Source: a virus. Taken from it: 64,000 bases of DNA. The stretch is taken from the IMG/VR virus record IMGVR_UViG_3300036939_000034, positions 1-64,000 of that record, one strand, 5' to 3'. Below the pieces are notes generated by a model, which ran no database searches, was not told the DNA's origin, and saw only the letters and a program-made list of their open reading frames with translations. A program made the translations under genes and the position numbers. Positions 777 to 43,410 of the stretch are shown one piece after another; the stretch's first letter is position 1, and the number at the start of each line of letters is the position of its first letter.

Positions 777-1169
777 TTAAGCAAGTGCCCCTGCAATTAG
801 AAACGACGCTAAGAACGAGATTCCACTAATGACCAAAACCTTGACCTTCAGGAAAAGACAGCACCACTCATGTGCAATATCCTGGGCTTTGTTTGGATAT
901 CTCCCTTTCTGTTTACCTGCGCTTTTGAAGCCTGACAAAATTCCATGAATGATGAAATCATGAGCGAATGGACAAAGCACTATTACGTCTTGCCATAGCG
1001 TTTCATGTCCTAAGTTTTTGTAAGTCATGTGATGGACTCTATAGGAACGTCCTTTACCGCACTTAATGAACGGGAACATGGAGCAGCGGTAGTCAGACTC
1101 GAAAAGAAAACACTTGTGCTTGTTCAGCCAGTGCGATGAGCGGATGTATGCGTGGTAGTTAAGTTTCAT
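777..1169 (-). CDS. degenerate HNH-like protein with C-terminal membrane segment
   Basis: The protein has 130 residues. Residues 8-77 follow the layout of phage HNH endonucleases: an aromatic Y-x-x-x-W start, C29 and C37, then VHHMTYKNLG (45-54) and LCPFAHDFIIHG (65-76), which match the HH, N and distal H positions of the beta-beta-alpha metal fold. The second knuckle is incomplete, having a single C66. Residues about 109-130 are a hydrophobic membrane-spanning stretch, which is unusual for HNH proteins. The gene overlaps the preceding gene by ATGA, so they are translationally coupled. Nuclease activity is uncertain. Confidence 0.55.
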   Translation of the reverse strand: MKLNYHAYIRSSHWLNKHKCFLFESDYRCSMFPFIKCGKGRSYRVHHMTYKNLGHETLWQDVIVLCPFAHDFIIHGILSGFKSAGKQKGRYPNKAQDIAHEWCCLFLKVKVLVISGISFLASFLIAGALA

Positions 1170-1381
1170 CGCCTTTCTATCAGTGTTTCATCAAACGTCC
1201 AAGTAGTTGGCATTTCTGCTGCGTCTTCAAGTTGCTCAGCATCAGCTTCTAGAACTTCGGCTGTATGAGAATCCCCAAGTCTTCTAGCTCTTTTAGCCTT
1301 GTCACGAGCGATAGCTGCTAGCTCATTTACGACGGCAGAAAAGCCAGAGCTATCTACACAAGTTTCTAATGTATACCTCAT
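1166..1381 (-). CDS. hypothetical small acidic/alanine-rich protein
   Basis: The protein has 71 residues and is mostly alpha-helical by composition, with many Ala and Glu and a central basic RDKAKRARR stretch. No motif is recognised. Its stop overlaps the ATG of the HNH-like gene by 4 bases, which supports real expression in the same transcript. Confidence 0.5.
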   Translation of the reverse strand: MRYTLETCVDSSGFSAVVNELAAIARDKAKRARRLGDSHTAEVLEADAEQLEDAAEMPTTWTFDETLIERR

Positions 1382-1586
1382 CTTTTTGTTTAGTGTCGAA
1401 TGACCAAATTAAAGTTGCTAGAAAGCCTGTCGCATCCGTCAAAAATGGCTTTTTGCGGGCGGCAATTTTCTGTCGCTTGTCGCGTGTCGCGCTTGTCGAA
1501 GCTACGCATTTGCGTTGTCACAGGCGTTTTCGACAAATCTTTTTCGCTGTTTACGCTCTTGTGCGACACGCGACAACACTACCCAA

Positions 1587-3158
1587 TCATGAGCAACAAA
1601 CTCGAAACCTGACGGATGAATCTGACCTGTTTCCCTCGTCTATTTCTCCAAGCCCAGAGTCTGCCATCAATCCTAAGTACTGATGTATTTGCTTTGAAGT
1701 TTTGCCTTTTAGTATCGATAGATTGAGTCGCTGAATTTCTCTCACTGTTATCCAGTCACCATGCTCCGAACATTTTGCAAATAGAGTCTTCATCGGCTCT
1801 TTTAGTCCAGACGACACAGTAAAACCTTTCAGTGTCTCTTCTGCTTCTTCTACCCTCTTGGCTTCTAATTCTTCCTCGAAGTCACTACAATCTTTTTTGT
1901 TTGCACTGAGGTTTGCTGGATTTCCCAACATCCCCAGCAAATAGCTTTCAGTTAGCCAGTCCGGTATCTTACCAGAGTCAGTAGAGCCATCTAAGTAAGT
2001 AACGTGGAATTTGCCCGTGGGACGAATTGTTTCTAGCCCGTCGCTGCCCTCTATCAATTCGCCAATGGTTTCAACCCTGACAGTGCCATTTAAAAACACT
2101 GTGACCAAGCCTTTGCTGCCTGGAAGAAAAGCAGCGGTTTCACCGTGAACAATGAATATTGGATACTCACCAAACTTCATTGTTTCTCTTAAGCAGGAAG
2201 TCAGAACGGACTTAATTTCATCCTCATCCATCACCTTGTCTTGCAGTCCAAACTCATCCCAAATTGTAGTAACAGAGTTGATTTTGCAAGCTTCAACTCG
2301 ACCCGCCAACGCATTCCATTCTCTGCGAATAGCGGGGTAGTCGCGCCGCCCATCTGGAGTTATTCCAGCAACCTTGAACACATCTGGATAAGGGTTGGCA
2401 GGTTCGTAATGAGGAGTTGAAGCAATTACCTCATGACCCTCCAATAAAACCATCCGAAGAAGTGCTAGTAACTTTGCCGCCGTTGACTTTCCTGTACGCT
2501 GTTGTCCAACGAATCGAGCAGGGTGAGACTTGACTAGCCTGAGCAGTGCGGGACACTCATCCTTCAGTCGATTGATTAGTTCTCTTTTTGACCTGTCAGT
2601 TACTTGAGGAAGTTGAGGTATTGCACTGTTCGCCTTCCGGGTTTTTTCCGTCTTTTCTCGTGACCTTCTTGGTATGACTTCCTCTTCGGTTTCGTTACTG
2701 CGTTCTCCCCAAACCCAGCCCGAAGCAGATGGCTCCTCTACTGACTCAGAAGAAGGTTGTGTGTGTTGTTTGGTGGATTCCCTTTTCGTTGCCTTTTCCT
2801 CTCTTCTAGGACGCTCTGAGCGAGGTTTGACGGGTTCCTCGCAGGCATCCTCTACCTCAACGTAATCATCGTATTCATCGCCATAAACCTCCTCTGCTGT
2901 CGTGTTGATAACGGGTGGAGCTTTCTTCCTGTTGGGTTTCACGCCGTCAACGCTCTTTAGGTCATTGACGGCAATGAGCGCAATGATCGCAGCCAGAGGA
3001 GGAGTGATAGTCCAACTCACAAAAGCTAGGGCAATTGAACAGACACCGATGAAGGCTTTGTCATCGGTGAAGCGTCCAACCAAAATAGGTTGTTCGCCGA
3101 AGTCGTTTTCAAACTCAAGCTCGTCAAGAAAGTTGTTCACTTTGGATAGGTTCGACAT
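1587..3158 (-). CDS. membrane-anchored P-loop ATPase with C-terminal winged helix
   Basis: The protein has 523 residues. Residues about 36-67 form a hydrophobic hairpin (two short membrane segments). Residues 80-180 are an acidic/basic low-complexity linker. A P-loop ATPase follows, with Walker A GQQRTGKST (218-226) and Walker B TTIWDEFG (298-305). The last 75 residues look like a winged helix (WITVREIQRLNLSIL, then a GLGEI turn). The layout recalls Zot/FtsK-like or plasmid-transfer ATPases, but I cannot assign it more closely. Its neighbours are membrane and exported proteins, so an envelope-associated assembly or transfer role is possible; that is inference. Confidence 0.6.
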   Translation of the reverse strand: MSNLSKVNNFLDELEFENDFGEQPILVGRFTDDKAFIGVCSIALAFVSWTITPPLAAIIALIAVNDLKSVDGVKPNRKKAPPVINTTAEEVYGDEYDDYVEVEDACEEPVKPRSERPRREEKATKRESTKQHTQPSSESVEEPSASGWVWGERSNETEEEVIPRRSREKTEKTRKANSAIPQLPQVTDRSKRELINRLKDECPALLRLVKSHPARFVGQQRTGKSTAAKLLALLRMVLLEGHEVIASTPHYEPANPYPDVFKVAGITPDGRRDYPAIRREWNALAGRVEACKINSVTTIWDEFGLQDKVMDEDEIKSVLTSCLRETMKFGEYPIFIVHGETAAFLPGSKGLVTVFLNGTVRVETIGELIEGSDGLETIRPTGKFHVTYLDGSTDSGKIPDWLTESYLLGMLGNPANLSANKKDCSDFEEELEAKRVEEAEETLKGFTVSSGLKEPMKTLFAKCSEHGDWITVREIQRLNLSILKGKTSKQIHQYLGLMADSGLGEIDEGNRSDSSVRFRVCCS

Positions 3159-3217
3159 CTTTAATTAAAAGCCCCGCAGTGCGAGGCTAGTGAAGGCTTG
3201 AAGTAGTAGAAGCAATG

Positions 3218-3745
3218 TTATTTTTTGAGAATGTTGTAGATGAATTCAAACGCAAAGGCGCAAACGATGGACATGATCAAGTTCCACCACAGAATCTGAT
3301 CAGGACTCCAGTAGGGAAAATCCTCCATCAGTGCCGTGTAGCCGCCTTCGTAAGGAGGAAAGTGAATGAAGATGATTGCAAACTCCCAGCAGTAAACCAT
3401 CCATCGCTTTTTTCTAATCCACTCAATATCGGTCATTTCGCAGTATTGAGTTAGCGACCAAAGCCCCACCGCGATCGCAGACAACGCATTCTCTTGGTTG
3501 GACAACCACGTAATCCATCCACCTAGCCAAGGAATTTGAGTTAAAGCAGTGAGAAACGGAACAAAAGTAATGGCTGATTTCATCTGCTTGGCTACTGCCA
3601 TCCAGGGTTGAATATTCAGCAACCCAACGAATGTGATTGTAGAAAGGAAAATGAAACGTCCGACTCTGTTGAGTGCCGTCTTTCCACTAACCTTTGAGCG
3701 ATTTGTATTGCTGCGACTACTTCTGCTACTTGTTGGTGCGACCAT
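3218..3745 (-). CDS. multi-pass membrane protein
   Basis: The protein has 175 residues, with a basic Ser/Arg-rich cytoplasmic N-terminus (1-28) and then about four hydrophobic segments near residues 30-48, 60-78, 118-135 and 150-170. It has many Trp residues. No family is recognised. The start overlaps the end of the upstream gene by about 20 bases, which suggests coupling to the exported protein 3726..4187. Confidence 0.55.
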   Translation of the reverse strand: MVAPTSSRSSRSNTNRSKVSGKTALNRVGRFIFLSTITFVGLLNIQPWMAVAKQMKSAITFVPFLTALTQIPWLGGWITWLSNQENALSAIAVGLWSLTQYCEMTDIEWIRKKRWMVYCWEFAIIFIHFPPYEGGYTALMEDFPYWSPDQILWWNLIMSIVCAFAFEFIYNILKK

Positions 3746-4187
3746 TTTTGCCCTCTCTTAATTGACTAAAAAGTTTGTCGTATTCCGCCTTGTCCTTGAG
3801 ATTTACTCGGACAATCTTGGATGTAGCACCACTGGCGTCAATTACAGCCGTCTCACCCACCGCATTGCAGACGAAAGCCCCTTCCCTGATTGGTCGCTTC
3901 AGCCTCATGTCCACAACCACAAGCCCAGGAGTGTAGTAGCTAGGCTGTTTCGTGGCCTTATCGACGGTCTGGATGCAATTACTTTTGAGCCGTTCTAACG
4001 CCACTTTGGAATACCTTTGGGCGTTCTTGGCTTCCTCTCTCATCAGGCGACTTTCGCTAGATGTGGTTGACTCGTTTTGCGTAATAACACTTCCTTGGTC
4101 AACTGTGGCTTTCATCTTGTCGCCTTGACTGAGAATTATTAGAGCGGCTGGAAAGAAAATGAACAAATGTGTTGCTTTAATTCTCAT
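3726..4187 (-). CDS. exported or membrane-tethered protein
   Basis: A start at 4187 (MRIKATHLF) is preferred over 4211 because its ATG overlaps the previous stop as ATGA. The protein has 153 residues: a short basic N-terminus, a hydrophobic segment (LFIFFPAALIILS), then a polar domain with two Cys (one in SNCIQTV, one in FVCNAVG) that could form a disulphide outside the cytoplasm. Family unknown. With the neighbouring multipass protein and the ATPase it forms a small envelope cluster. Confidence 0.55.
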   Translation of the reverse strand: MRIKATHLFIFFPAALIILSQGDKMKATVDQGSVITQNESTTSSESRLMREEAKNAQRYSKVALERLKSNCIQTVDKATKQPSYYTPGLVVVDMRLKRPIREGAFVCNAVGETAVIDASGATSKIVRVNLKDKAEYDKLFSQLREGKNGRTNK

Positions 4188-4435
4188 CGCAGACTCCTTA
4201 CAACCACGCACCCAACTTCTTCATAGTTCTCTGTTAGTGACTGCCATTTAGGGCATTCTTTGATGTCAAAATGGGCTTCCCCGTCAATCTCCAGAGTGTG
4301 TCCATTATCCCTAGGCATAAAGTCCTGGTTCGGCTCAAGTCCTTGCTCTTCTAGGTATGCAGTAATATCAGCAAGTAACTGGTAATAGGCAGAGTTGTAG
4401 ATAAAATTGACTCGTCTTTTCGTCCCTAAAACCAT
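4184..4435 (-). CDS. hypothetical protein
   Basis: The start is placed at 4435 (MVLGTKRR). A GAGGG site lies about six bases upstream, and the longer frame to 4471 would run back into the previous gene. The product has 83 residues and mixed alpha/beta composition, with no recognised motif. It is coupled by ATGA to the exported protein downstream. Confidence 0.5.
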   Translation of the reverse strand: MVLGTKRRVNFIYNSAYYQLLADITAYLEEQGLEPNQDFMPRDNGHTLEIDGEAHFDIKECPKWQSLTENYEEVGCVVVRSLR

Positions 4436-4439
4436 TGCT

Positions 4440-4802
4440 CTACCCTCGCAGTTGCATGGTGAGAGCTTCAATTAGCCCTTCAATATCAGACGAGACAAAG
4501 TTATCTGCAACATCCTGGACGAACTGAGTAAAATCCTCGTCGTCCCACACCTCTAGGTCATCTCCACCAGCGCCAGCGATACAAGCTTCCATGCAAGTAA
4601 GATCGCTGCCTTCCGGTTGCCAGATTGGCTCCATGACTTGATAGGTAGCCAGTGCAGCACGAAAGACTCGCTTGTGGTCGTCCGACAAAGCTTCGAGGCG
4701 ATCGCCATAAGTCTCAACCAAATCTGAAATAAGCTCACGAACCCTGCTATCTCTGTTCCCAATGTAGTAGCCGAGGGGCTTTGCACTATTTGAAACAACC
4801 AT
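4440..4802 (-). CDS. hypothetical acidic protein
   Basis: The protein has 120 residues and is strongly acidic toward the C-terminus (DDLEVWDDEDFTQFVQD). A helical segment, VRELISDLVETYGDRLEALS, lies near residues 21-40. A good AAGGAG site precedes ATG 4802. No domain is recognised. It sits five bases after a tiny gene (4807..4926), so they are probably co-translated. Confidence 0.55.
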   Translation of the reverse strand: MVVSNSAKPLGYYIGNRDSRVRELISDLVETYGDRLEALSDDHKRVFRAALATYQVMEPIWQPEGSDLTCMEACIAGAGGDDLEVWDDEDFTQFVQDVADNFVSSDIEGLIEALTMQLRG

Positions 4803-4806
4803 CGAT

Positions 4807-4926
4807 TCAGTCTCCTTTCTTGATTGGTTTGTCGCGTATTACTGGTTTAGGTTTGCCCGGTTTCGCTTGCTGGGTATTAACTGAACTCGATGTGTGATAC
4901 CCGTCGTAGATAGCCCTAAGATGCAT
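4807..4926 (-). CDS. 39-residue basic small protein
   Basis: The gene begins at ATG 4926, preceded by GGAG seven bases upstream, and ends at TGA 4807. The product is Lys/Pro-rich (QQAKPGKPKPVIRDKPIKKGD at the C-terminus) and starts MHLRAIYDGY. It lies two bases after the 42-residue membrane ORF and five bases before the acidic gene, filling the gap exactly. The basic product next to an acidic one may indicate partners; that is speculation. Confidence 0.45.
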   Translation of the reverse strand: MHLRAIYDGYHTSSSVNTQQAKPGKPKPVIRDKPIKKGD

Positions 4927-4927
4927 T

Positions 4928-5056
4928 TCAATCTCCTCTTGCCATAAGCCCCAGCCCCAGAGCCAGCGCTCCTAAAGCGAATCCGACAGGGGTAGCGAAC
5001 AGGCTGGCTGTAGCGGCTGTTGCTCCGAGGGTTCCGATGATTGCAAGGTGAAGCAT
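4928..5056 (-). CDS. 42-residue single-span membrane peptide
   Basis: ATG 5056 is preceded by AGGAG with good spacing, and the frame ends at TGA 4928. The peptide is almost entirely hydrophobic (MLHLAIIGTLGATAATASLF, then a Gly/Ala/Leu-rich second half) and ends in a positive ARGD tail. It could be a holin-like or membrane-modulating peptide. No family is recognised. It adjoins the next small gene without a gap. Confidence 0.45.
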   Translation of the reverse strand: MLHLAIIGTLGATAATASLFATPVGFALGALALGLGLMARGD

Positions 5057-5163
5057 TGATTTGTCTCCTGATTGATTTTGTTGGTGAATGGCTTTGACTA
5101 GGGAGGTTCTGAGCTTTGGGTCAGACTCTAGAACCTCCGCAAGGTGAACTAGCGAGACTGGGT

Positions 5164-5766
5164 TTAACGACTGAGAACCTGTTTGCGTCGGCTGCTCAGG
5201 TCGTCCAACTTTCCCAGCTCGGTCAATTTTCCCAGTGTCCCCACTCTGCGGCTTGAGCGCTTTTTATCGATTCGCGTCAGCAGGGATTCAACAGACTCGA
5301 ACTCACCACGATGGGCTTGCACAAACTCGCTTAATCGGCGTTGGTCGTTTTGCTCGTAAGCTTCCTCAATGGCGTCCCACTTTTCCTCTGAAAGGGCAGT
5401 GCCTACCATCATTCCGACCTCAAAACCCAACTGAGTCAAAACCGTGGTCAATCCTGAAAGGCGATCGCGATTGTAGTCAGTGTTAGTGGCAAGAACCTCG
5501 GCAGGCTCTTTGCTAACCAAGTCAGTGTTTTCGGTCTTCACTTCGGTTAAGACCGGACGGTCGAGAGCTTCCTGCATTTTGCTGCGTAACAACTTGAGAG
5601 TGTTCGAGTCGATGTCCTCGTACTTGTCCGGGTTAATGAGTTCATCGCCTGGGGTTTGACCTTCGTTAACAAGGTGGTCACCTAGCTCAACTAAGGCAAA
5701 ATTCATGTCATCAACTGAACCGAAATTAAGCAGCGAGAATGCGTCTGATTTTGCGACCTGCGTCAT
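5164..5766 (-). CDS. hypothetical protein, mostly helical
   Basis: The protein has 200 residues. The N-terminal half is acidic; the C-terminal 45 residues are basic (RIDKKRSSRRVGTLGKL and following) and could contact nucleic acid. No motif is recognised. The gene overlaps the end of the upstream HTH gene by 41 bases. The 107 bases to the next gene hold nothing I can identify. Confidence 0.5.
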   Translation of the reverse strand: MTQVAKSDAFSLLNFGSVDDMNFALVELGDHLVNEGQTPGDELINPDKYEDIDSNTLKLLRSKMQEALDRPVLTEVKTENTDLVSKEPAEVLATNTDYNRDRLSGLTTVLTQLGFEVGMMVGTALSEEKWDAIEEAYEQNDQRRLSEFVQAHRGEFESVESLLTRIDKKRSSRRVGTLGKLTELGKLDDLSSRRKQVLSR

Positions 5767-6145
5767 TGTGTTGGACTCCCTTCTTGATGTGTTGGAAATT
5801 GGATTGAGTTAACAACGGTTGATTCTTGATGGAAATGAAAAACTTTTCAGCTTCTGCTCTGTCGCCAGTGAATACAACCAAAAACCTGCAAAGTAGCAGA
5901 AGCCAGATGCGGTAGTGGTTTAGCCTTGCTCTTCCTCCTCTGCCGAGGGGAAGCAAGGGAGTGAATTGGATAGTTTCGCGGTAAGAGTCGCACCAGTCCA
6001 AAAGAATTTGCTCATCCTTGTAAATCGTGTTGGGATGAACGCCTAAAAACTGAGCGAGTGAAACCCTCGTTAACTTGCCTTGACTCATGAAATTAGCCAA
6101 GACAATTTGCGCTCTATCCCATGCAAGCTGCTCCTTTTTGTTCAT
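5726..6145 (-). CDS. helix-turn-helix protein
   Basis: The protein has 139 residues from ATG 6145 (a TTG two codons upstream is less likely). Residues about 25-50 (TRVSLAQFLGVHPNTIYKD) form a clear helix-turn-helix. The central LLPLGRGGRARLNHYRIWLL is reminiscent of cyanobacterial phage/plasmid HTH proteins. It is the first gene of the leftward run down to position 18, so it may regulate it. No obvious Shine-Dalgarno precedes the start. Confidence 0.5.
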   Translation of the reverse strand: MNKKEQLAWDRAQIVLANFMSQGKLTRVSLAQFLGVHPNTIYKDEQILLDWCDSYRETIQFTPLLPLGRGGRARLNHYRIWLLLLCRFLVVFTGDRAEAEKFFISIKNQPLLTQSNFQHIKKGVQHNDAGRKIRRILAA

Positions 6146-6175
6146 GGTCAAAATATGGAATTAGTGATTTTTGTT

Positions 6176-7708: not shown

Positions 7709-7740
7709 GCGATCGCAAATTATTGGAGAAGTGCGATCGC
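7709..7740. repeat. HIP1-paired hairpin in 480-base gap
   Basis: GCGATCGCA (7709-7717) pairs with TGCGATCGC (7732-7740) and is followed by ATTTTATT, so it could act as a weak terminator or leader stem before the Rha-like gene. The gap 7424-7767 otherwise holds only a doubtful 29-codon frame (ATG 7576 to TAG 7665) without a well-placed ribosome site. Confidence 0.4.
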
Positions 7741-7767
7741 ATTTTATTATTCATCTCAACAGGAAGA

Positions 7768-8724
7768 ATGGTAGCACAAATGAACGGAATTGAAGTTGTT
7801 ATCAAATTTGAGAGACTAGTTGTTGATTCGCGACTAATCGCACAAAGGCTTGACATTCAGCATAAAAACTTTTTGGTAAACATAGAGCAGTACGAAGAAG
7901 AGGCTGTTGTAGAAGGGTTTTTACCACTCGCGTTTGAAACGCGCCTGGTAAAACGCCCACAGGGAGGGAGTTACGAGGAGCGATGGGCTTGGCTGGATGA
8001 AGAGTGGGCTAACTATGCGATGACCCTTTCTCGCAATACGCCAGAAGTCAGAGCGGCTAAACGAGGATTAATTAAAGCTTTCTCTACTGCAAAGCAAAAA
8101 CTGGCACAAAAGCAACCGCAGGTCGAATTATTGGTTCAGCAACCAGAACCGCTCAACGCAGACATCGAACAACTAGCGGACGAGGTGGTCAAGATTATTT
8201 TTGAAATGATTTGGAAATCTGCGGACTGCATAACCAACGTCAAAGTAAAAACCGCCAGAGAACAGAAGAAACTAAAGAAGGAGTTCGAGAAGGGGATCGA
8301 CCGCAATTTTCTGTTCTCGATAGCGACGGAAGCTATTGGCGACGTAGGTCACAACGCCGAACACCAGCACAAGGAAGTTATCAAACAGATTCGGTTGAGA
8401 GTCGCTCCCTACAAAGAGTACTTCGTCTCCAAGCTTCTGGAATGGCAGGAATTGCAAGCGCTTTCGCAACCCACACAGCCGCTACTGCCGCCCACCGTCG
8501 TCGTCCTTCGACCCAAGGATGTTCGCAAAAAGATTGAAGAGTTCCTCGATAGGTTGCAGAGCATGACCCCGGAAGAACAACGGGCTTTGTTCCTCACCGT
8601 CCCTAATCTTACTCAGAAAGAGAAAAGCTCAGGTCGCTTCAGTAGCCGGATAATTGCCAGATACCTTGAGCTGGCACCCGGACAAGATCGGCTGGTGGCG
8701 GCGATCATGAGCGAAAGGAATTGA
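7768..8724 (+). CDS. Rha/antirepressor-like phage regulator with ParB-type HTH tail
   Basis: ATG 7768 is preferred (CAGGAAGA just upstream); the longer frame starts inside a hairpin. The product has 318 residues. The first 90 resemble Rha-family phage antirepressors: VVDSRLIAQRLDIQHKNFLVNIEQY, then an F-x-x-RLVKR...WAWLDEEWANYAMTLSRNT segment. The last 70 residues (VRKKIEEFLDRL...SGRFSSRIIARYL...GQDRLVAAIM) match the region after the ParB domain in 26419..28620 almost residue for residue. That block looks like a DNA-binding HTH. The protein probably controls lysogeny or early genes. Confidence 0.6.
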   Translation: MVAQMNGIEVVIKFERLVVDSRLIAQRLDIQHKNFLVNIEQYEEEAVVEGFLPLAFETRLVKRPQGGSYEERWAWLDEEWANYAMTLSRNTPEVRAAKRGLIKAFSTAKQKLAQKQPQVELLVQQPEPLNADIEQLADEVVKIIFEMIWKSADCITNVKVKTAREQKKLKKEFEKGIDRNFLFSIATEAIGDVGHNAEHQHKEVIKQIRLRVAPYKEYFVSKLLEWQELQALSQPTQPLLPPTVVVLRPKDVRKKIEEFLDRLQSMTPEEQRALFLTVPNLTQKEKSSGRFSSRIIARYLELAPGQDRLVAAIMSERN

Positions 8725-8814: not shown

Positions 8815-9003
8815 ATGACAAACAAAGAACATCGGTTTTTCCATTACGACCTTGACACAGGCAAATCAACCCCTGTTGAGCCTGTAAGGGTGGGCAACGT
8901 CGAATTTCTAGTACCTGTTCAAATTAAAGAGGATTCAGACGATGAAAACGACACAGATCGAAACGACTCAGGTGAAGCTGACCAACAACGGCGAGACTCC
9001 TGA
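8815..9003 (+). CDS. small acidic protein upstream of csx3
   Basis: The protein has 62 residues, with a very strong GGAGGAATCA-ATG start. The N-terminal half is ordered-looking; the C-terminal 25 residues are almost all Asp, Glu, Asn and Arg. No family is recognised. The csx3-like gene begins inside its last 62 bases in another frame, so the two are coupled. Confidence 0.5.
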   Translation: MTNKEHRFFHYDLDTGKSTPVEPVRVGNVEFLVPVQIKEDSDDENDTDRNDSGEADQQRRDS

Positions 9004-9289
9004 CTTTACCGTTGTAGCCGTAGAGCTTTTGGTTGACTCCGTTACTCCCGACTGCCTCAAGGAACTCAAGAACACCGACTTATTGAGCCTTGTTGATACA
9101 ACAAAAGGGGTAGTTATCGACAACGCTAGACCAACCTGGCTTGCGGGCTTCCTAGCCCACGAATTCCATGCAACAGCCTGGGTTGCCGTTAATGACCCTC
9201 GACTAGGCGCAGTTGTAATCGAGTCTCATTCCCCATCACGTCAGGTTTCTCAGGTTCTCGACTGGAAATCTGAACTATACATCTGTTAG
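8942..9289 (+). CDS. csx3: Csx3/Crn3-family ring nuclease homologue
   Basis: The protein has 115 residues, the usual size of the stand-alone Csx3 domain. The diagnostic block is RPTWLAGFLAHEFHATAW (63-80), then VAVNDPRLGAVVIESHSP (81-98). H76, D85 and R87 reproduce the spacing of the H60-D69-R71 catalytic set described for archaeal Csx3 (Crn3), which degrades cyclic tetra-adenylate, the second messenger of type III CRISPR systems. No cas gene or CRISPR array is in the window, and the gene lies among phage genes with a terminator after it. Anti-CRISPR function is therefore a reasonable inference. Family membership is from sequence; activity is untested. Confidence 0.8.
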   Translation: MKTTQIETTQVKLTNNGETPDFTVVAVELLVDSVTPDCLKELKNTDLLSLVDTTKGVVIDNARPTWLAGFLAHEFHATAWVAVNDPRLGAVVIESHSPSRQVSQVLDWKSELYIC

Positions 9290-12581: not shown

Positions 12582-13418
12582 CTACAGAGGGAGAGGAAAC
12601 TCCTGAATCCTTAAGTCCTCCGGAAACTCATCAATGTCCCCACCCTTGCTATTGGAAAGGTGGAAGTGCGGGAAATGGTCAGGATAGTCTGATTCTGAAA
12701 AGACGGGCTTACTACCCAGTTGCTTCACGAACACGGCCGGTCCATTCGCTGCACTTCGGCACTGACGGACGAGCGATCGCATCCAGTCCACCTGACAAGG
12801 TCGCGCCCCCTTGCCCGACTCACCACCAATAATTGCCCAGCTCAAATGGTTGACGTAATCACCCAAGCAGACTTCTTCTAGTAGTGGCTCACAGGAGACA
12901 AATAACACAAAGGTAGGTATTTGAGTCAGGTACGGCAAGCGCTCATTCACTACTCGCTGGTTCTCCACTGTGCAGCCCATCCAGAAGTTACTAGGCAGCA
13001 AATCCCGCCCACGAGCATTTAGCCAGTCAGCGCAGGCTTGCAGCATAATATCGGGGCGCTTGGTGAGGAACTGGAATATCAACTTCGAGTTGAACGCCGC
13101 ATCAAACATCTCGAAGTGCCAATCACGAGGCACCCAATCACCAAAAATATCGGTCATGCTGCCGACAAATACCCTCTTCGTCTCCCTAACCCTCGTCCAC
13201 CGAGCTAACTCTTTGCGGTCTAATTCCAGCTTCGGAGCTTCCCCAGCGTATTTGAGGTGTGAGGCAAAGCTGAAGTAACTATTGTTGTTGATTGCTTCGG
13301 CGTAACAGTTGGCACAGCCTTCAGAAATCTTCTGGCACCAGTGCCCGCCTAGTGTGCCATCTTCCTTAAGGACGCGGACGGGGTTAGAAGTAGCCTTGAT
13401 CCATTGAATTTTACTCAA
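12582..13418 (-). CDS. phage Gp37/Gp68-family (DUF5131) protein
   Basis: The protein has 278 residues. The N-terminus has IQWIKATSNPV, then HWCQKISEGCANCYAEA (C-x6-C-x2-C), FVGSMTDIFGDWVP, QFLTKRPDIM, a WMGCTVENQ block and WAIIGGESGKGARP. These are all hallmarks of the Gp37/Gp68 family common in phages and mobile elements. The three cysteines suggest a metal or iron-sulphur site. The family has no firmly established activity that I can rely on. It heads a short leftward group with the next gene by ATGA overlap. Confidence 0.75.
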   Translation of the reverse strand: MSKIQWIKATSNPVRVLKEDGTLGGHWCQKISEGCANCYAEAINNNSYFSFASHLKYAGEAPKLELDRKELARWTRVRETKRVFVGSMTDIFGDWVPRDWHFEMFDAAFNSKLIFQFLTKRPDIMLQACADWLNARGRDLLPSNFWMGCTVENQRVVNERLPYLTQIPTFVLFVSCEPLLEEVCLGDYVNHLSWAIIGGESGKGARPCQVDWMRSLVRQCRSAANGPAVFVKQLGSKPVFSESDYPDHFPHFHLSNSKGGDIDEFPEDLRIQEFPLPL

Positions 13419-17160: not shown

Positions 17161-17443
17161 AGCACTGCAAGCGGTAAATAGCTCCCTTCAAGCCCTAACC
17201 CTAGTGTTGCAGCGTCTTGAAGAGGATCGCGCTTGGCTGCCCATCAAGGAAGCAGCTCCCCGACTGAACGTAAGCGATCGCTGGATTCTGGAGCGCATTC
17301 GTAAACGGGCGTACAAGCACGGCGTTCATTTCGTGAATACGTCGGACGGCGATCGCCCCAACTACCTCGTGTCAGTGGCAGCCATCCGCAAGGAACTAGC
17401 CAAGTCACCAGAGAAGCGAAGGTCAGGGATTGTCCCGAAATAG
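17138..17443 (+). CDS. excisionase-like HTH protein
   Basis: The protein has 101 residues. After a helical N-terminus, WLPIKEAAPRLNVSDRWILE (about 39-58) and the following RIRKRAYKHGVHF form a MerR/excisionase-type winged HTH; VSVAAIRKEL resembles the wing end. It converges on and slightly overlaps the integrase gene, the usual place for a directionality factor that drives prophage excision. The role is inferred from fold and position. Confidence 0.55.
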   Translation: MGEITLTEALQAVNSSLQALTLVLQRLEEDRAWLPIKEAAPRLNVSDRWILERIRKRAYKHGVHFVNTSDGDRPNYLVSVAAIRKELAKSPEKRRSGIVPK

Positions 17444-18505
17444 CCGCTCAAACGCCTCCTCGTGAATCTTCTCAGAAATCCATCGGTGATAAATCTGAGT
17501 GTGAATTCCAACGGAATGACCCATCTGCTGAGAAGCTAGGGTCAAATCAAGCCCTAAATTAAGGGTTCTTACTGCCCAAGCATGGCGCAGGTCATAGGGA
17601 CGAAACGGGCAACCCGATCGCTTGAAGTACTGCTGAACACGGTTCCCGAACTCACTATTACTTCCCGCTGTCACGGCGGGAAGTTCCACCTCCCACAACT
17701 CCCACTCTTTCCACCAATCCAACGGAAACGGAAAAACCAATCGCGCCCCCGTCTTTCCATCTAATACCCTCAATCCCTTCTCCCCCTGCCTCAACCGCTC
17801 CAAATCCAGGTGAAAGACCTCGTGAGGACGTAAGCCATAAACCGCCAACATCCCGTACACCCACTGCCAAGCAGGGTTAACAAGGTGCGATCGCCACTCC
17901 TCAATCACCGAATCCTCTGGCAATTCACGCGCTTGAGCCTTAGCGGCTGAATAGCTGCCCCGAAAAGCCTTTAGGTCTACGTCTATCCCCGCAAACTTCG
18001 CCAAGGCTCCAAGTGCCATACAGTAGCGCACTCGTGTGCGGGTGTCGGGAGAAGTGAGTGCGATCGCTTCCAGCACCAGCTCCTTGGTCAGCGCAGCATC
18101 CGGGTCAAGGTGGCTAAAAGTCAGTCGATAGTCCTTCTCGTAAGTCGTCTCAGACTTTGGATTACGTTGCCGCCGGTTGAAGTAATCCGCCTCAAACTCC
18201 CTGACCCAATCCGCCACGAGCTTAGGCTTAACCACCTCAACCTTGAGGTACGGTTCCCAGGAAAACTGCTTCATTGCCAGGGCAGCCCCTAGTGCGATCG
18301 CCTCTGCCTTCGCTCGTTTAAACCCGGATGGATTGGCATAAATCCCTAGGGCTATTTCCTGCTGGTGCGATCGCTCTACCTTACTCCCTGGCTTCGGTGG
18401 GAGAGTCGCCCGTAGGTACAACCTATTCCCTTTTTGTCGTACTTGGACGCCGATGTTAGCGCTTTTTAGCTGAGTATTAACTTCCCCTAAATAATCCTTT
18501 CCCAA
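17423..18505 (-). CDS. int: tyrosine-family integrase
   Basis: The protein has 360 residues. The C-terminal catalytic domain shows R226 (GLRPHEV), K251 (DGKTGAR), R307-H308 (YDLRHAW), H330 (QMGHS) and Y339 (TQIYHRW), the complete tyrosine-recombinase set. Tyr replaces His three residues before R307. Residues 95-200 form the SAM-like core-binding domain. It would integrate the phage by recombination between attP and a host site. The adjacent tRNA-His 3' half at 18645 is the probable site. Confidence 0.85.
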   Translation of the reverse strand: MGKDYLGEVNTQLKSANIGVQVRQKGNRLYLRATLPPKPGSKVERSHQQEIALGIYANPSGFKRAKAEAIALGAALAMKQFSWEPYLKVEVVKPKLVADWVREFEADYFNRRQRNPKSETTYEKDYRLTFSHLDPDAALTKELVLEAIALTSPDTRTRVRYCMALGALAKFAGIDVDLKAFRGSYSAAKAQARELPEDSVIEEWRSHLVNPAWQWVYGMLAVYGLRPHEVFHLDLERLRQGEKGLRVLDGKTGARLVFPFPLDWWKEWELWEVELPAVTAGSNSEFGNRVQQYFKRSGCPFRPYDLRHAWAVRTLNLGLDLTLASQQMGHSVGIHTQIYHRWISEKIHEEAFERLFRDNP

Positions 18506-30836: not shown

Positions 30837-31616
30837 GTGGACATTTTAACAAAGAACGGAATAGATCCGTTGAAATATGAATTGGGCATCCTATGCCATG
30901 CGAAGCATGATTGGATGGAGACGGGGTACAGCTTAAGGCAAAAGAGGAAAGGTCGAAAGAGTACCAATTGTGTTGAGTGTTCAAGACTAGCGAGTCGTCG
31001 CTACAGAGAGCAAAACCCAGAAAAGGTTAAAGAACACGCAAAGAAAAGCTATCAAGCTCAAATGGCGAAGATAGCTGCTTCCTCTGTAGAATCTCAGGAA
31101 GAATACAGGCAAAGAAGACGGCTTGCCAGCAGCAAATTTTTCTCAAATAACCATGAGTTATGTCTGCAAAGAAATAGAGCATCTAAAGCCAAGCACAAAG
31201 AGAAAGTCCTTCGGTATGGCAGGGAGTATTCCAGAAAGAATTGGAAGATTCAATATCGCAGGCACTGGCAAAGGATAAAGCTTTATACTCAGGAGCGCAA
31301 AGCTAAGAAGCTACTCGGGGGCGAATTCCCTGGTATTCGCACTCTCAGGGAGTGTTTTCAGTATTTTGACAGTTGCTGTGTCTATTGCTCTTGTGAGCTT
31401 GACTTCTGTGTGGGTCAAAACAAGGTGCAATGGGATCATATTGTGCCTGTATCAAAAGGCGGACAAAATAACTTGCACAATTTAGTCCCGTCGTGTAAGT
31501 CTTGTAATTCAAGTAAATACTGTACAGATTGGATTGCTTGGTACTCGTCTCGTCCGTTCTTTTGTTTAGAGCGATTCATGAAAATCAATAACCATACACA
31601 AGGGATTTGGCTTTGA
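30837..31616 (+). CDS. HNH endonuclease between terminase genes
   Basis: GTG start at 30837; 259 residues. The C-terminus has a complete HNH/zinc fold: CVYCSCEL, VQWDHIVPVSKGGQNNLHNLVPSCKSCNSSK. The N-terminus has a second Cys/His pair (LCHAKHDW...CVECSR), and the middle is very basic. It splits the terminase genes, as homing endonucleases do, but HNH proteins can also take part in packaging. Its stop overlaps the terL ATG. Codon use looks more A/T-rich than its neighbours, which favours an invading gene. Confidence 0.75.
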   Translation: MDILTKNGIDPLKYELGILCHAKHDWMETGYSLRQKRKGRKSTNCVECSRLASRRYREQNPEKVKEHAKKSYQAQMAKIAASSVESQEEYRQRRRLASSKFFSNNHELCLQRNRASKAKHKEKVLRYGREYSRKNWKIQYRRHWQRIKLYTQERKAKKLLGGEFPGIRTLRECFQYFDSCCVYCSCELDFCVGQNKVQWDHIVPVSKGGQNNLHNLVPSCKSCNSSKYCTDWIAWYSSRPFFCLERFMKINNHTQGIWL

Positions 31617-33049
31617 TGCTTCCATCCTCTTTAGAGTTGCCGCCAAAGATGAGGCTCAAGATAATTGAGCGTAGTAGCTCTAAGGGGATTTTATCCAAAG
31701 CCTCTCCTTCTGAGGGAATACAAGAGGGAGATCGACTGTTCCGTCGTCTTCCTCCGTTGCTGATGCCGTACCAGGCTCAATGGTTCTCCGATACCAGTCA
31801 AGTAATGGTGTGGGAGAAAAGTCGGCGGATTGGGGCAACCTGGGCTGATGCAGCTAAATCGGCTTTGCAGGCAGCACGTTCAAATGGTAGCGATACTTAT
31901 TATCTTGGAACCTCAAAGGAGATGACTCTTGACTATATTGAGAGCGTCTCTTACTGGGCAAGGGCTTATCAATTGGCGGCAACCCAGATTGAACAGACTG
32001 TTATCAGGGATGAAGACGAAGATATTCTGGTTTTTCGGGTTCGCTTTGCCTCTGGACATAAAGTAGTAGCTCTATCCTCTCGTCCATCCAGCTTGCGGGG
32101 GAAGCAGGGGAATGTCGTCGTTGATGAGTGCGCGTTTCTTCAGGACTTTAACGAAGTTCGTAAGGCTGCTATGGCTCTAACTATGTGGGGCGGACAAATT
32201 AGGTACATTTCAACCCATAACGGTGTAAGCAATCCTTTTAACAAGTTGTGTGAGGAGATTCGATCTGGGGCGCTTTCGTATAGCTTACATCGGACAACAC
32301 TATCTGATGCGATCGCAGACGGACTCTTCAGGCGAATCTGCTTGATAAATGGCGAACAGTGGACGCTTGAGAATGAATTTGCTTGGTATGCCCAGCTGTA
32401 TAGAGACTATGGGATTGGTGCTGACGAGGAGTTAGGTTGTCAGCCATTAGACGTTAAAGGTGGCGGACTCGTATTCAACAGAACCTGGTTTGAAGTTGTT
32501 GACACCCTTCCTCGGTTCTCCACCCAAGTTCGTTTCTGGGATATGGCAGCGACTGCCCAAGAATTCAACTCAGACGCTTTCTACACCGCAGGCTTGCACC
32601 TGGGTCGCTTCGGTTCCGATTATTATGTTGTCCACCTAATCGCCGAGCAAGTAGGACCCGCCGAAGGGGATGACCTGATTGTCACCACAGCCGCTCAAGA
32701 TGGGCGAATCGTCCCAGTGCGCTGGGAGTTAGAGGGGGGTAGTGCAGGGCTAAAGGTTGAAGCAAACTTGCGATCGCGTTTGTCTGGCTTTGATGCTCGT
32801 GGGGTAAAACCATTGGGTGACAAACTGACCCGTGCCAAACCTATTGCAGGAGAAGCCAAGCGCGGTAACGTCAAGTTGCTGCGTGGTATGTGGAATCAGA
32901 TGTTCTTGGATGCGGTTCACGGTTTCGATGGAACCAGCCAGCCACTGATTAATGATGTGACCGACGCTTTAAGTGGCGCTTATGGAGAGATTTCCACCGT
33001 TCGGAATTACCATGTTAGTGGAACGGTGAATCGAGCTAAGTTGAGCTAG
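31616..33049 (+). CDS. terL: terminase large subunit (Mu gp28-like)
   Basis: ATG 31616 overlaps the HNH stop. The product has about 477 residues. The ATPase part has a Walker A-like VWEKSRRIGATWADAAK and Walker B VVVDECAFL. The nuclease part has RFWDMAAT, with further acidic residues toward LINDVTDALSGAY. It is the packaging motor that cuts and translocates DNA into proheads. Order and motifs match phage Mu gp28 and Terminase_6 proteins. Confidence 0.85.
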   Translation: MLPSSLELPPKMRLKIIERSSSKGILSKASPSEGIQEGDRLFRRLPPLLMPYQAQWFSDTSQVMVWEKSRRIGATWADAAKSALQAARSNGSDTYYLGTSKEMTLDYIESVSYWARAYQLAATQIEQTVIRDEDEDILVFRVRFASGHKVVALSSRPSSLRGKQGNVVVDECAFLQDFNEVRKAAMALTMWGGQIRYISTHNGVSNPFNKLCEEIRSGALSYSLHRTTLSDAIADGLFRRICLINGEQWTLENEFAWYAQLYRDYGIGADEELGCQPLDVKGGGLVFNRTWFEVVDTLPRFSTQVRFWDMAATAQEFNSDAFYTAGLHLGRFGSDYYVVHLIAEQVGPAEGDDLIVTTAAQDGRIVPVRWELEGGSAGLKVEANLRSRLSGFDARGVKPLGDKLTRAKPIAGEAKRGNVKLLRGMWNQMFLDAVHGFDGTSQPLINDVTDALSGAYGEISTVRNYHVSGTVNRAKLS

Positions 33050-33101
33050 TCAGGACGTATAGCGCCAATGAAGCGACCAATCAAAGAATGGATGCGATCG
33101 C

Positions 33102-33836
33102 ATGGATGAACCCGAACTAACACAAGCTGATCTGGCAACGAACGCCGAAACATGGAAGCACATCGACCTAGTAATGCAGTTGCTAGCAAACGCCCAGATT
33201 GAGTTAATGCGGCGGCAGTTCACCCATGATCGCTCTAAGCTTACTACCCCTGAAGTGTCTACTTTTACCGAGTACACCCCTAAGTTGGCAGGGAGTACTT
33301 ATGGTAGCGAAGAGTACAAGCAGTTCCTCCAAGGCATGAAGCCCGCGCTTGACCATCACTACAGCAAGAATCGCCATCATCCTGAGTTCCATGCAAAGGG
33401 AAGCAGCAAGAAAGTTTCTCAGATGTTCGCTCAGATTGAAAAATTGGAGCGATTGATTGGTAGTGGATTGGATGATTCTGTTGTTGAGGTATTAAAAGAG
33501 CAAATTAAGTTTTTGCAAGACGAGATAAAAGTTTCAACGAGCAGGGTGTCAAACATGAACCTGTTCGACCTTCTAGAGATGCTGATCGACTGGTATGCAG
33601 CAACCAAGCGACATAATGACGGCAACATCTATCGCTCTGTTGAAATCAATCGCGATCGCTTTGATATGTCAGATCAGCTGGCACGAATCTTTTTAAACAC
33701 GATTCCTTGGATTCAAGTCAACGAATTTGACCGATATCGCAATCAAGCTGACTTGGAATATGAATTATTTCTTAAAACTAATCACATTGACAGAGGGACA
33801 TTTCTCGCGCAGAGAGACTGGAAGAAAGATCCATAG
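33102..33836 (+). CDS. DUF5662-like phage protein
   Basis: The protein has 244 residues. It has an N-terminal helix with HDRSKLTTPEVSTFTEY, then YGSEEYKQFLQGMKPALDHHYSKNRHHPE and DLLEMLIDWYAATKRHNDGN. The spaced His/Asp residues look like a metal-binding helical fold, as in the DUF5662 family common in phage structural regions. Activity is unknown. It lies between terminase and portal, so it may help packaging or head assembly. Confidence 0.65.
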   Translation: MDEPELTQADLATNAETWKHIDLVMQLLANAQIELMRRQFTHDRSKLTTPEVSTFTEYTPKLAGSTYGSEEYKQFLQGMKPALDHHYSKNRHHPEFHAKGSSKKVSQMFAQIEKLERLIGSGLDDSVVEVLKEQIKFLQDEIKVSTSRVSNMNLFDLLEMLIDWYAATKRHNDGNIYRSVEINRDRFDMSDQLARIFLNTIPWIQVNEFDRYRNQADLEYELFLKTNHIDRGTFLAQRDWKKDP

Positions 33837-33847
33837 GAGCGATCGCA

Positions 33848-34036
33848 ATGCCCAAGCCTAAAACTGGAGGAAGAATCCACTCAAGCGACATTTCTCGCAT
33901 AGGGAATGTAGCAGGAGTCAACGGGTTGGAGATACCTGAACCAACTCCACTAGCAAGCAAGGAAACCTGTGCAGATCGTGCCTCTGCAAAAATGGTTCCT
34001 TTCAATATGGACAATCTAGATAGTTCTAACTACTAA
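33848..34036 (+). CDS. small hypothetical protein
   Basis: The protein has 62 residues, with AGGAG eight bases before ATG. It starts MPKPKTGGRIHSSD, similar to gene 16604..16825. It appears disordered. Function unknown. Confidence 0.45.
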   Translation: MPKPKTGGRIHSSDISRIGNVAGVNGLEIPEPTPLASKETCADRASAKMVPFNMDNLDSSNY

Positions 34037-34087
34037 GCGATCGCATTGGAGGTTGGTGGACAAGAGTTGAATGCATAGATAATGTTC

Positions 34088-34115
34088 CCTATCACCTACC
34101 CCCTAAAACCTATTC
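34088..34115 (+). repeat. heptanucleotide CCTANNN array, 4 copies
   Basis: CCTATCA, CCTACCC, CCTAAAA, CCTATTC in register, directly before the portal start. It is the same heptamer family as 62935..63032. There is no Shine-Dalgarno before ATG 34120, so the array replaces the normal leader. Confidence 0.5.
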
Positions 34116-34119
34116 CTAA

Positions 34120-37100
34120 ATGCCCTTTGACCTTCAGACCAAACTAGAAATTGTAAGAACTGACCCCAACCTTGTTACCTGGGTCTTCAATGGCGGCCCC
34201 GAACCGGAAGACATCTATCTTTACCAGCGCTTTGGTGGTGACTTCTTCCGCTACGAAGAGATGCTCATCGATCCACAGGTAGGCGGGAAGTTAGACGAGC
34301 GGGTTGGTGCACTGTTGGGACGAGCGGTTCTAGTTGATGCAGCAAGCGAGGAGAAGGCAGATATAGAGGCAGCCAACCTCGCCAAGAAAATCTTAGACAT
34401 TCACGACGAAGACCAGAAGCAGGGGAAAAAGGACAAAAAGAAAAGACCGCTGATTCCCTACGAACAAATTTGCAGCAATTTCCTCAACAGTGGATTATTA
34501 ATCGGCTTCGCCGTCCAGGCTTTGGAGTGGGTAGAACGGGATAAGCTAATTCTCCCAAATGTGGAATTTGTTCCCCAGCGACGCTTTACCTTCCGCTACC
34601 GGGAACCGGACAACAAAACTATCAAGGTCTGCACAGATGAAGACCTTGACCCAACCAAGGATATTGTCTTAGTCAGTGGCTACGAACTCAGGCTGCTTAC
34701 TAAGCGATCGCCCATCGAAGGAGAACGGTGCCCTCGCAATAGATTCATCTGCTACACCTACGGCAGCATGAAGGGTTTGCCCCAGGGGTTAGGGCTTGGC
34801 TACCGTATTCGCAAGTTTTATGAGATTCGCAAAGAGGTGATTAAGTCAGGGGTGCTAACAGGCGATCGCCTCGGTTCGCCACCCGTTCACGGCACCTACC
34901 CCGTTGACCTTAATCCCCAGAATACTGATGACGCCATTGTCTTAGGCGCTTTCAACCGACTGCTCAAAGCCATCAGTCCCAACGCCAACGCCAGCACTAC
35001 GGACGGATTCAAGATAAACTTCCTTGAACCCCGTGCGGGCGGGCATCAGATCTTAAAGTGGCTGTACGACACAGCAGCAGTGGAAATCTCTCGTGCTATT
35101 TGGGGAGAGGGAAGCTACTCGGAAAAAACTACAGGAAGCTACGCAGCAGAAACCCAGCAGGCTGAGAACCGTAACGAGAACGTAGTTGACGCCGATTGCA
35201 ATTCACTGGACGAAGGTCCATGTGCCCAGTTGTGGCAGTTGATTGGCGAATACAACTGGCCCGATGCCACAAACCCGATAATCCGACGGGAAACCCGGTC
35301 AGAAATCAGGCGACTGGAGCAGGAGCGTCTTGAGGATGAGCAAAGGGAGGCAAAGCGTAATGGCAGAGTGCAGAGCGATCGCACTCTCATCCTAGACATC
35401 GGGTTGAATGTTACAAACGATTACATTAAAGCCACATACGGTGAAGCCTTCTCTCTTCCTGACGCTGAACCTCCACCAGAAGAGGATACAGCAGAGTTAT
35501 CAGAATCAGCATCTCGACAAGGCTCGATGACCGCCGACTTCGGCGCAATCATTGACCGTAAGCTGAAGTGGAACGGTTTAGACATTGGTGTTGAATTTCT
35601 CCCCGGTGCTGTTCGTTTCCCTGGTCGCAAGAACAGCAAGAAGCTTCGTTCGGGCTACGGTCACATCCGAGGATACTTGGGCGCTGATGGCAATGCCCTA
35701 GACTGCTACCTCTACCTCGGTTTAGTTCCCCCCAAGGGTGAAGAACCTCAAGGAAGCGATCGCATCTTTGAGGTTGAGCAAATCTCACCCGAAGACGGCG
35801 ACTTCAATGAGCACAAGTACATGATCGGTTACGACTCGGTAGAAGCTGCTAAAGCTGCCTACCTTACCGAGATGCCGGAGGAGTATTTTGGACGGATTCG
35901 GGAAGTTACTGTTGCAGATCTAGAGCAATACAAGCGTGTGAACTTTGCCGAGTCGGTACTATGGGGCGTGTGGTTCAAGGGACGCAACACCCCAGCCGTT
36001 GTGGACGCAAGTGACAGGGGAGAAGCGATTAAAAAAGCTCGTGCAACCAAGTGCGCTGGGTGGAACCAGGACGTTACCTCCTGTCGCCAGCTCAAAGGCA
36101 AATCCTTGGAGCTGGCGAAGAAAGGAAACTGGGTGAGGGAGCGAGCTAATGGGAGTGAGGAGTGTGGTGCTTTCAAGTACAGACCTCAGCTTAAGCCTGA
36201 GCATTCAGAGGGTGACGACAGTTTTTTTTTAACGAGTGAGGACGCCTACGAGGAGCGCTTCACTGATGCTTTCCACCAAGCCCTCAAGAAAGCGATCGCC
36301 TCTATCAAAGATTCCCTAACCCCCGAACTAAGTTGGGAGTCGCTCTATGCAAAGCTGGATATCACAACTTTAGCCTCAGCCATTGCCGAGGGAAACTCGC
36401 TCAGTTTCCTGGTTGGGATGTACTCGGAGCGACCCGACCGAGGGGAGGTGGAATTTGCCGACGATCCAACTCGGCTGCCATTCGACAAAGCGATCGCCTA
36501 CTTCCGCCAAAAGCTCAACATCCCAACCCAGACCTGGAAAGATATCCAAGGGGCAGAGAATGACTGGGCGTTTGCCGTGGCCGGTGTCACCAGTGCCGAA
36601 ATGCTCCAGGATTTCCGCGCAGCAATGGATCGGTATATTGCTGAGGGAACAGGCTTTGCTCAGTTTGCCAAGGAGTTTGATGCGATCGCCCAAAACTACG
36701 GCTGGCAGCCAAGGGAAGGAGTAGCGAGGAGGGCTGATTTGGTTGCCAAAACTAACTTCCGCATGGCTTACGCGGCAGGGCAGTGGCAGCAACGACAAGA
36801 CCCCGTAGTGAAGCAGCTACGCCCTGGCTTGATGTGGCGACACCGTGACTCTCCACAGGAACGCCCCCACCATAAAGCGATGGATGGCATGGTGTTTGAC
36901 GGCAATGATCCGCAATACTCTGGGCTTGTTGGTTTTTCAGGGTTCGGTTGTCGCTGCCGTACCTTCTCTGTCCCTGCACCAGATGGCGGATTTGATGTGT
37001 TAAGCGATCGCTTGCCTTATCAATTTCCCAATGGTGAAATGGGGGAAGTTCCAGCTATTAAGGTTAAAGAGAAAATTTACCCAGTCGCTGACGAGGGATT

Positions 37101-37251
37101 CTTCTACACCCCTGGTAAATCGCCCATCTCTGCCCGACCTCACCTATTCCAGCAGATGCTTGAGAGGCAGCAACCCACCTGGCAGAAGTTGATTAGAAAG
37201 GTTATTCCTCAAAGGATATTGAGGGCATTTAAGCCCAAAGGATTTGGCTAA
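34120..37251 (+). CDS. portal (DUF935) + InPase-like + MuF head protein fusion
   Basis: The protein has 1043 residues. Residues 1-440 are a DUF935 (Mu gp29-like) portal (VFNGGPEPEDIYLYQRFGGD, LLIGFAVQALEWVE, FVPQRRFTFRY). Residues about 470-610 match the pyrophosphatase-like (InPase) domain of phage polyvalent proteins (GVEFLPGAVRFPG, SGYGHIRGYLGADGNALDCY). A Cys-rich segment follows (KCAGWNQDVTSCRQ...EECGAF). Residues about 720-1043 are a MuF/SPP1 gp7 head-morphogenesis domain (HRDSPQERPHHKAMDGMVF, GFGCRCRTFS). Portal and MuF are normally separate genes. The ring portal would carry the extra domains into or onto the head. Confidence 0.8.
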   Translation: MPFDLQTKLEIVRTDPNLVTWVFNGGPEPEDIYLYQRFGGDFFRYEEMLIDPQVGGKLDERVGALLGRAVLVDAASEEKADIEAANLAKKILDIHDEDQKQGKKDKKKRPLIPYEQICSNFLNSGLLIGFAVQALEWVERDKLILPNVEFVPQRRFTFRYREPDNKTIKVCTDEDLDPTKDIVLVSGYELRLLTKRSPIEGERCPRNRFICYTYGSMKGLPQGLGLGYRIRKFYEIRKEVIKSGVLTGDRLGSPPVHGTYPVDLNPQNTDDAIVLGAFNRLLKAISPNANASTTDGFKINFLEPRAGGHQILKWLYDTAAVEISRAIWGEGSYSEKTTGSYAAETQQAENRNENVVDADCNSLDEGPCAQLWQLIGEYNWPDATNPIIRRETRSEIRRLEQERLEDEQREAKRNGRVQSDRTLILDIGLNVTNDYIKATYGEAFSLPDAEPPPEEDTAELSESASRQGSMTADFGAIIDRKLKWNGLDIGVEFLPGAVRFPGRKNSKKLRSGYGHIRGYLGADGNALDCYLYLGLVPPKGEEPQGSDRIFEVEQISPEDGDFNEHKYMIGYDSVEAAKAAYLTEMPEEYFGRIREVTVADLEQYKRVNFAESVLWGVWFKGRNTPAVVDASDRGEAIKKARATKCAGWNQDVTSCRQLKGKSLELAKKGNWVRERANGSEECGAFKYRPQLKPEHSEGDDSFFLTSEDAYEERFTDAFHQALKKAIASIKDSLTPELSWESLYAKLDITTLASAIAEGNSLSFLVGMYSERPDRGEVEFADDPTRLPFDKAIAYFRQKLNIPTQTWKDIQGAENDWAFAVAGVTSAEMLQDFRAAMDRYIAEGTGFAQFAKEFDAIAQNYGWQPREGVARRADLVAKTNFRMAYAAGQWQQRQDPVVKQLRPGLMWRHRDSPQERPHHKAMDGMVFDGNDPQYSGLVGFSGFGCRCRTFSVPAPDGGFDVLSDRLPYQFPNGEMGEVPAIKVKEKIYPVADEGFFYTPGKSPISARPHLFQQMLERQQPTWQKLIRKVIPQRILRAFKPKGFG

Positions 37252-37253
37252 TT

Positions 37254-39295: not shown

Positions 39296-39313
39296 AGCGA
39301 GGTTTATGCCTTT

Positions 39314-41585: not shown

Positions 41586-41587
41586 AG

Positions 41588-41602: not shown

Positions 41603-41626
41603 TTTGTTGTTTAAGGCGGTTTATTT

Positions 41627-43409: not shown

Positions 43410-43410
43410 T

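Follow-up and report, generated by a model that had tools for sequence, protein, structure and literature searches.

A phage-borne Csx3/Crn3 protein with an altered ligand loop as a candidate anti-type III CRISPR factor

Among described ring nucleases, the protein reported here stands closest to Crn3/Csx3 from Archaeoglobus fulgidus (AfCsx3, AF1864; PDB 3WZG, 3WZH, 3WZI, 6YUD and 6VJG), a stand-alone protein of about 110 residues whose dimers sandwich cyclic tetra-adenylate (cA4) head to tail, with the H60 and D69 faces of adjacent dimers forming a site that needs Mn2+ (PMC7371418). Catalysis requires H60 and D69, R71 and H80 are important and H57 is invariant; the ring itself is contacted by I22, S44, G45, R46, I49 and R71, of which G45, I49 and R71 are absolutely conserved (PMC7371418). 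Type III immunity that acts through Csx1 is partly relieved when M. mazei Csx3 is expressed in E. coli, and AcrIII-1 has this effect as a viral gene, the M. mazei enzyme being the slower of the two in a published test (PMC7371418). AcrIII-1 (viral Crn2, DUF1874) is, like the product described below, small and virus-encoded, and it is an anti-type III enzyme that destroys cA4; its fold, however, is unrelated and its activity metal-independent, whereas our protein has the Csx3 fold, which in AfCsx3 goes with dependence on Mn.

Other ring nucleases found in phages (Crn4b, Csx16, Csx20 and AcrIII-2, or vSAVED) belong to families distinct from Crn3. A survey of 28,114 phage genomes by Hoikkala et al. 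in 2025 recorded AcrIII-1 (36), Csx20 (4) and Csx16 (2) and named no Crn3 (PMC12409355), and Chi et al. added Crn4 in 11 phages, again with no Crn3 reported (PMC12830947). A limited literature search on our side found no publication on a viral Crn3, and our best reading is that of a known enzyme family in a viral setting which we have not found described.

Identity and fold of the csx3 product

Positions refer to the window, that is, the whole stretch of 64,000 nucleotides analysed, which belongs to a virus record of 70,323 bases, a linear metagenomic contig. Around csx3 it holds the following features.

7723..8724, plus strand: Rha/anti-repressor-type phage regulator upstream of csx3 (family matches)
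8815..9003, plus strand: acidic 62-aa ORF overlapping the csx3 start, with a GGAGGA site at 8805-8810 and no family match, presumed to be co-transcribed
8928..8933, plus strand: Shine-Dalgarno sequence AGAGGA, 8 nt 5' of the csx3 ATG (sequence)
8942..9289, plus strand: csx3/crn3 gene for a 115-aa stand-alone protein of the ring nuclease family (ORF, family and fold matches)
9119..9136, plus strand: residues 60-65, D-N-A-R-P-T, diverged, at the site of the AfCsx3 cA4-binding loop S44-G45-R46-G47-P48-I49 (alignment; roles from PMC7371418)
9158..9169, plus strand: H73-x-x-H76, equivalents of H57/H60, the metal/catalytic face (alignment; roles from PMC7371418)
9194..9202, plus strand: D85-P-R87, equivalents of D69-P-R71, the second catalytic face (alignment; roles from PMC7371418)
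9227..9229, plus strand: H96, equivalent of H80, which contacts the cA4 2'-OH (alignment; roles from PMC7371418)
9317..9348, plus strand: strong intrinsic terminator just 3' of csx3, with an 8-bp stem (7 GC pairs) and a T-rich tail

The csx3 frame is intact over its 115 codons from an ATG start, and the gene is presumed to be the last of a rha-orf62-csx3 transcription unit ending at the terminator. Its product is matched by TIGR02579 at 9.6e-24 (83.5 bits against a curated cut-off of 55.4), by Pfam PF09620 (Cas_csx3) at 7.6e-20 (71 bits, cut-off 21) and by AF1864, whose structure is known, at 3.5e-17 with 49% identity over 80 residues, scores that place the relationship far above chance and bear out a first-pass annotation which had recognised Csx3 from the letters of the sequence. 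The same annotation had set H76-D85-R87 against H60-D69-R71 of the archaeal enzyme, and these residues do align. Structure prediction, which it had proposed as a check, points the same way: an AlphaFold2 model built on a 32-sequence alignment (mean pLDDT 85.5) has as its best Foldseek matches in the PDB 3wzh and 3wzg (AfCsx3) and 6yud (AfCsx3 with cA4), at E values from 3e-9 to 1e-7 and TM scores that reach 0.78 (query) and 0.90 (target), and AfCsx3 structures are its sole strong matches there. No viral structure in BFVD resembles the model with E < 0.001, no PHROG family fits and neither sequence nor fold of DUF1874 is present, Csx3 being the only family matched. By sequence and fold, then, the protein is a true Csx3/Crn3, and it shares with AfCsx3 a stand-alone build but is phage-borne and has the D-N-A-R-P-T loop.

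Phage setting of csx3

Further away from csx3, the window comprises the following landmarks.

777..6151, minus strand: gene block left of csx3, syntenic in the related phage G001 (49-65% aa)
12582..13418, minus strand: DUF5131 gene on the right-hand side of csx3, with 72% aa identity to its counterpart in G001
17423..18505, minus strand: tyrosine integrase (family matches)
31607..49633, plus strand: Mu-type terminase, portal, major head protein and tail sheath, a structural module common to G001-G003

Baseplate genes, a DnaB helicase and a Dam methylase are present as well. Three related virus records (G001-G003) share with the window terminase (67-92%), head (75-93%) and sheath (85-88%) proteins; Csx3 is absent from all three, so that within this lineage csx3 occurs in one phage only among those seen and can be regarded as accessory. 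Since the flanking genes are common to G001 and csx3 is missing in the relatives, the gene is bracketed by phage genes within a variable stretch. The first-pass claim that it lies among phage genes and far from any cas gene thus agrees with what the record holds, in which we found no Cas10 (over 70.3 kb) and no CRISPR-like repeat array, and csx3 has in common with AcrIII-1-like ring nucleases that it is virus-encoded and away from cas genes.

A chimeric contig, or cellular DNA of a type III locus that neighbours a prophage, would be one way to explain such a gene in a linear metagenomic assembly, all the more as the integrase sits between csx3 and the structural genes. We find this scarcely credible, however. 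Genes to the left (0.8-6.2 kb) and to the right (12.6-15.3 kb, including weak similarity at 14.4-15.3 kb) of csx3 occur in G001, the C-terminal domain of the neighbouring Rha-type regulator recurs (62% over 69 aa) in a gene of the central phage region that encodes 1363 aa (24529-28620), and neither Cas10 nor an array is at hand. Moreover, HIP1 octamers (GCGATCGC) are found on both sides of csx3 and throughout the structural module, and it is this spread together with G001 synteny on either side that to our minds largely rules out host DNA or a chimera; host DNA next to a CRISPR locus was one of the outcomes that the annotation had named as fatal to its proposal.

HIP1 is present 97 times against 0.8 expected. 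Abundant HIP1 is a cyanobacterial signature, and the count marks this phage as one with a probable cyanobacterial host, in line with the cyanophage setting first proposed. When 20 kb of the structural region were compared with 386 cyanobacterial genomes, the spacer-like matches were weak and short or host-like, with none convincing, and a megablast search of plasmids with the left-hand 25 kb gave no matches. As for the phage being temperate, integrase and Rha-type gene, the two features from which we judge, suggest lysogeny as the annotation had it, although no prophage copy was found to go with them. Relatives of the Rha-type gene were not seen in the viral contigs searched.

Other parts of the window hold gene arrangements worth recording. 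A C5-cytosine methylase has its N-terminal half in a different open frame (24948-25511) inside the 1363-aa Dam ORF (24529-28620), which itself seems to hold the rest of that methylase, as in a frameshifted or overlapping gene. One 1043-aa ORF (34120-37251) joins portal (Mu), inorganic-pyrophosphatase-like and Mu F domains, and a response-regulator receiver protein (29709-30101) is encoded just 5' of the terminase genes.

Csx3 in other viral records and in cells

Alignment scans and DNA-pattern scans with profile scoring identified Csx3 ORFs in 19 other IMG/VR records of uncultured viruses (L143, L146, L006, L007, L008, L147, L130, L149, L137 and L012 among others). Their Csx3 forms are, like our protein, about 100 aa long, and Cas10 was found in none of the 19 records. 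The csx3 genes often adjoin head, tail or replication genes. Portal, terminase or tape measure genes lie near Csx3 in several of them, with a large terminase in L146, L139, L159, L162 and L006 and tape measure proteins in L147 and L130; DnaB (L149), a UvsX-like recombinase (L012) and a RecT-like protein (L007) are encoded as well, and some records also carry ThyX/NrdB/PhoH-type genes. One (L008) is 272.6 kb long and probably a lytic jumbo phage. In addition, a linear 18-kb sequence deposited as a Pyramidobacter 'plasmid' (NZ_CP133039), which carries crn3 together with Rha, integrase, LexA, holin and DNA polymerase genes, has the appearance of a phage or of part of a prophage. A viral Crn3 would, as the annotation suggested, be a route different from that of AcrIII-1, and these further viral records encode one as well. 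The annotation had called for a search of cyanophage genomes; in viral records at large, the 19 from IMG/VR contrast with none among 50,697 INPHARED phages, where tblastn with five different Csx3 queries retrieved no relative and a single weak match (E 5) to a terminal protein. A scan of viral contigs with the window Csx3 as single sequence likewise gave no close relatives.

In L008 (10025-10978) and in L135, the gene next to Csx3 encodes, unfused, a protein similar to the AAA ATPase of cyanobacterial Csx3-AAA fusions.

These records also bear on whether Crn3 serves the lysogen rather than lytic success, by damping the type III response of the host itself (self-targeting or autoimmunity) and so keeping the lysogen alive. 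Such a role, which we hold to be improbable, would fit an integrase-bearing phage in which csx3 follows a Rha-type regulator gene, and for cellular Crn3 a role in resetting this signal has been proposed (PMC7371418). On the other side, no integrated copy was seen, and Csx3 in the probably lytic jumbo phage and in records of the ThyX/NrdB/PhoH type argues for use during infection, at least there.

In cells, Csx3 is above cut-off in 33 of 386 cyanobacterial genomes. Cas10 is encoded, mostly within about 13 kb, in all 40 cyanobacterial genomes with any Csx3 match (seven with weak matches only included), and in 36 of the 37 genomes from a separate genome scan for Csx3. The usual partner of Csx3, judged by this co-occurrence, is type III CRISPR, a pairing that supports cyclic oligoadenylates (cOA) as the ligand class. 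Cyanobacteria, likely the host phylum of our phage, encode Csx3-AAA fusions (some 300 aa, close to Cas10) with which the window protein has the Csx3 domain in common; they are ATPase-fused and host-encoded, however, and in a tree of 92 domains over about 119 columns, whose deep forks are unreliable, the window Csx3 does not belong to the well-supported clade in which cyanobacterial Csx3 and Csx3-AAA fusions group (97/94). It is placed on a long branch (1.74) among viral lineages with no exact neighbour fixed by the tree. Recent capture from a cyanobacterial host is not favoured by this position.

The cellular searches brought up further variants. In related cyanobacteria (L101, L103, L105, L107, L109), a stand-alone chromosomal Csx3 is conserved away from Cas10 and adjoins repeat-rich calcium-binding-type and sensor-kinase-like genes. 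A divergent Csx3-like family (L110-L115, weak TIGR02579 matches), with an I-N-G-P-x-S-I-P loop and DPK for DPR, lies 2-3 kb from Cas10 in several genomes. One cluster in a Doudnabacteria MAG (L052) with no Cas10 detected combines a Csx3 with an unfused AAA gene and also a Csx3-AAA fusion.

The ligand loop and a proposed role in counter-defence

Equivalents of H57, H60, D69, R71 and H80 are all kept in the window Csx3 (H73, H76, D85, R87, H96) in spite of its long branch in the tree, and so its catalytic machinery is complete. Its loop is unusual: S44, G45, R46 and I49, the part of the loop that binds cA4 in AfCsx3 and a binding feature rather than one that defines the family, are replaced by D60, N61, A62 and T65, residues that as a set (D60-N61-A62...T65) are unique among 98 Csx3 domains compared. 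The G45 equivalent is present in 19/19 viral and 75/76 cellular domains (1 gap), with Asn in the window Csx3 alone. Position 44 is highly variable (S, E, T, N, D), position 46 is Arg in 18/19 viral and 60/76 cellular domains, and Thr at position 49 recurs in a single further viral Csx3 and in a single cellular one. Within the IMG/VR set, H57/H60/D69/R71 are kept in 19/19 and the G-R loop, which the window Csx3 lacks, in 18/19. A frameshift as cause of the odd loop was rejected, as inspection by eye of the other two frames across 9113-9139 revealed no SGR-like motif.

We consider it reasonably probable, and the most likely of the functions discussed, that this phage-encoded Crn3 acts as an accessory ring nuclease against type III CRISPR. 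On entry of the phage genome into a cyanobacterium with a cA4-producing Cas10 complex, Crn3 dimers would stack head to tail around the ring, adjacent dimers would complete the active site between them, one with its H73/H76 (metal) face and the other with its D85/R87 face, and cA4 would be cut to linear di-adenylate, upon which cA4-activated effectors would fall silent. An accessory counter-defence gene is expected in a variable region, and the csx3 stretch is just that, being absent from three relatives. Also in favour are family and fold, the kept catalytic residues, the phage location, the recurrence of csx3 in viral records without Cas10, the tie of cellular Csx3 to type III systems and the precedents of M. 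mazei Csx3 and AcrIII-1. The altered cA4-cradling loop (G45N, R46A, S44D, I49T) weakens this anti-CRISPR reading; the slowness of M. mazei Csx3 beside AcrIII-1, the lack of a convincing spacer match and the occurrence of csx3 in one phage only among those seen of this lineage also count against it. Binding and cleavage of cA4, as well as the timing of expression and a benefit to the phage, are what we infer; cleavage is likely but not certain, and as residues holding cA4 on the D69 face are replaced, neither substrate nor rate should be assumed to be unchanged.

Might the loop changes instead have abolished cOA binding altogether, leaving a drifting accessory gene or one with another role such as RNA deadenylation? 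RNA deadenylation is the first activity that was reported for AfCsx3. Loss of an otherwise invariant glycine, the long branch and the lack of csx3 in relatives would suit decay or repurposing, yet decay should also strike the frame, the ribosome-binding site, the terminator and the catalytic residues, every one of which is intact, and we judge it unlikely. Decay would not spare catalytic residues, and so binding of a cyclic oligoadenylate is probably retained, albeit with an affinity or a choice of ring that may differ.

Substrate specificity may indeed have shifted, and it is a minor possibility that the rebuilt loop binds or cuts cA3, cA5 or cA6, or makes the protein a sponge, still in the service of counter-defence. 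This would agree with the ligand-holding loop being the only functional element changed next to a fully kept set of catalytic residues, with an arginine retained one position later (R63) and with base pockets that show plasticity according to structural work (PMC7371418). On the other hand, Asn can adopt the same backbone conformation as Gly, which may leave the loop functioning normally, and Crn3 enzymes tested to date have been described as cA4-specific (PMC13148439).

Ring nucleases decide the persistence of type III CRISPR signalling, and their known viral families are few. Crn3 has hitherto been known as a host enzyme, the phage surveys cited above having yielded AcrIII-1, Csx20, Csx16, Crn4 and AcrIII-2 and not Crn3. 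As a natural variant of the ligand loop, the protein is of use for studying substrate choice. It is quite unlikely, in our estimate, that phages evolved their own Crn3 branch in which the rebuilt loop of this cyanophage neutralises cOAs other than cA4; if true, such a non-cA4 Crn3 would give a counter-defence of different range, directed at other type III signals or CBASS-type cA3.
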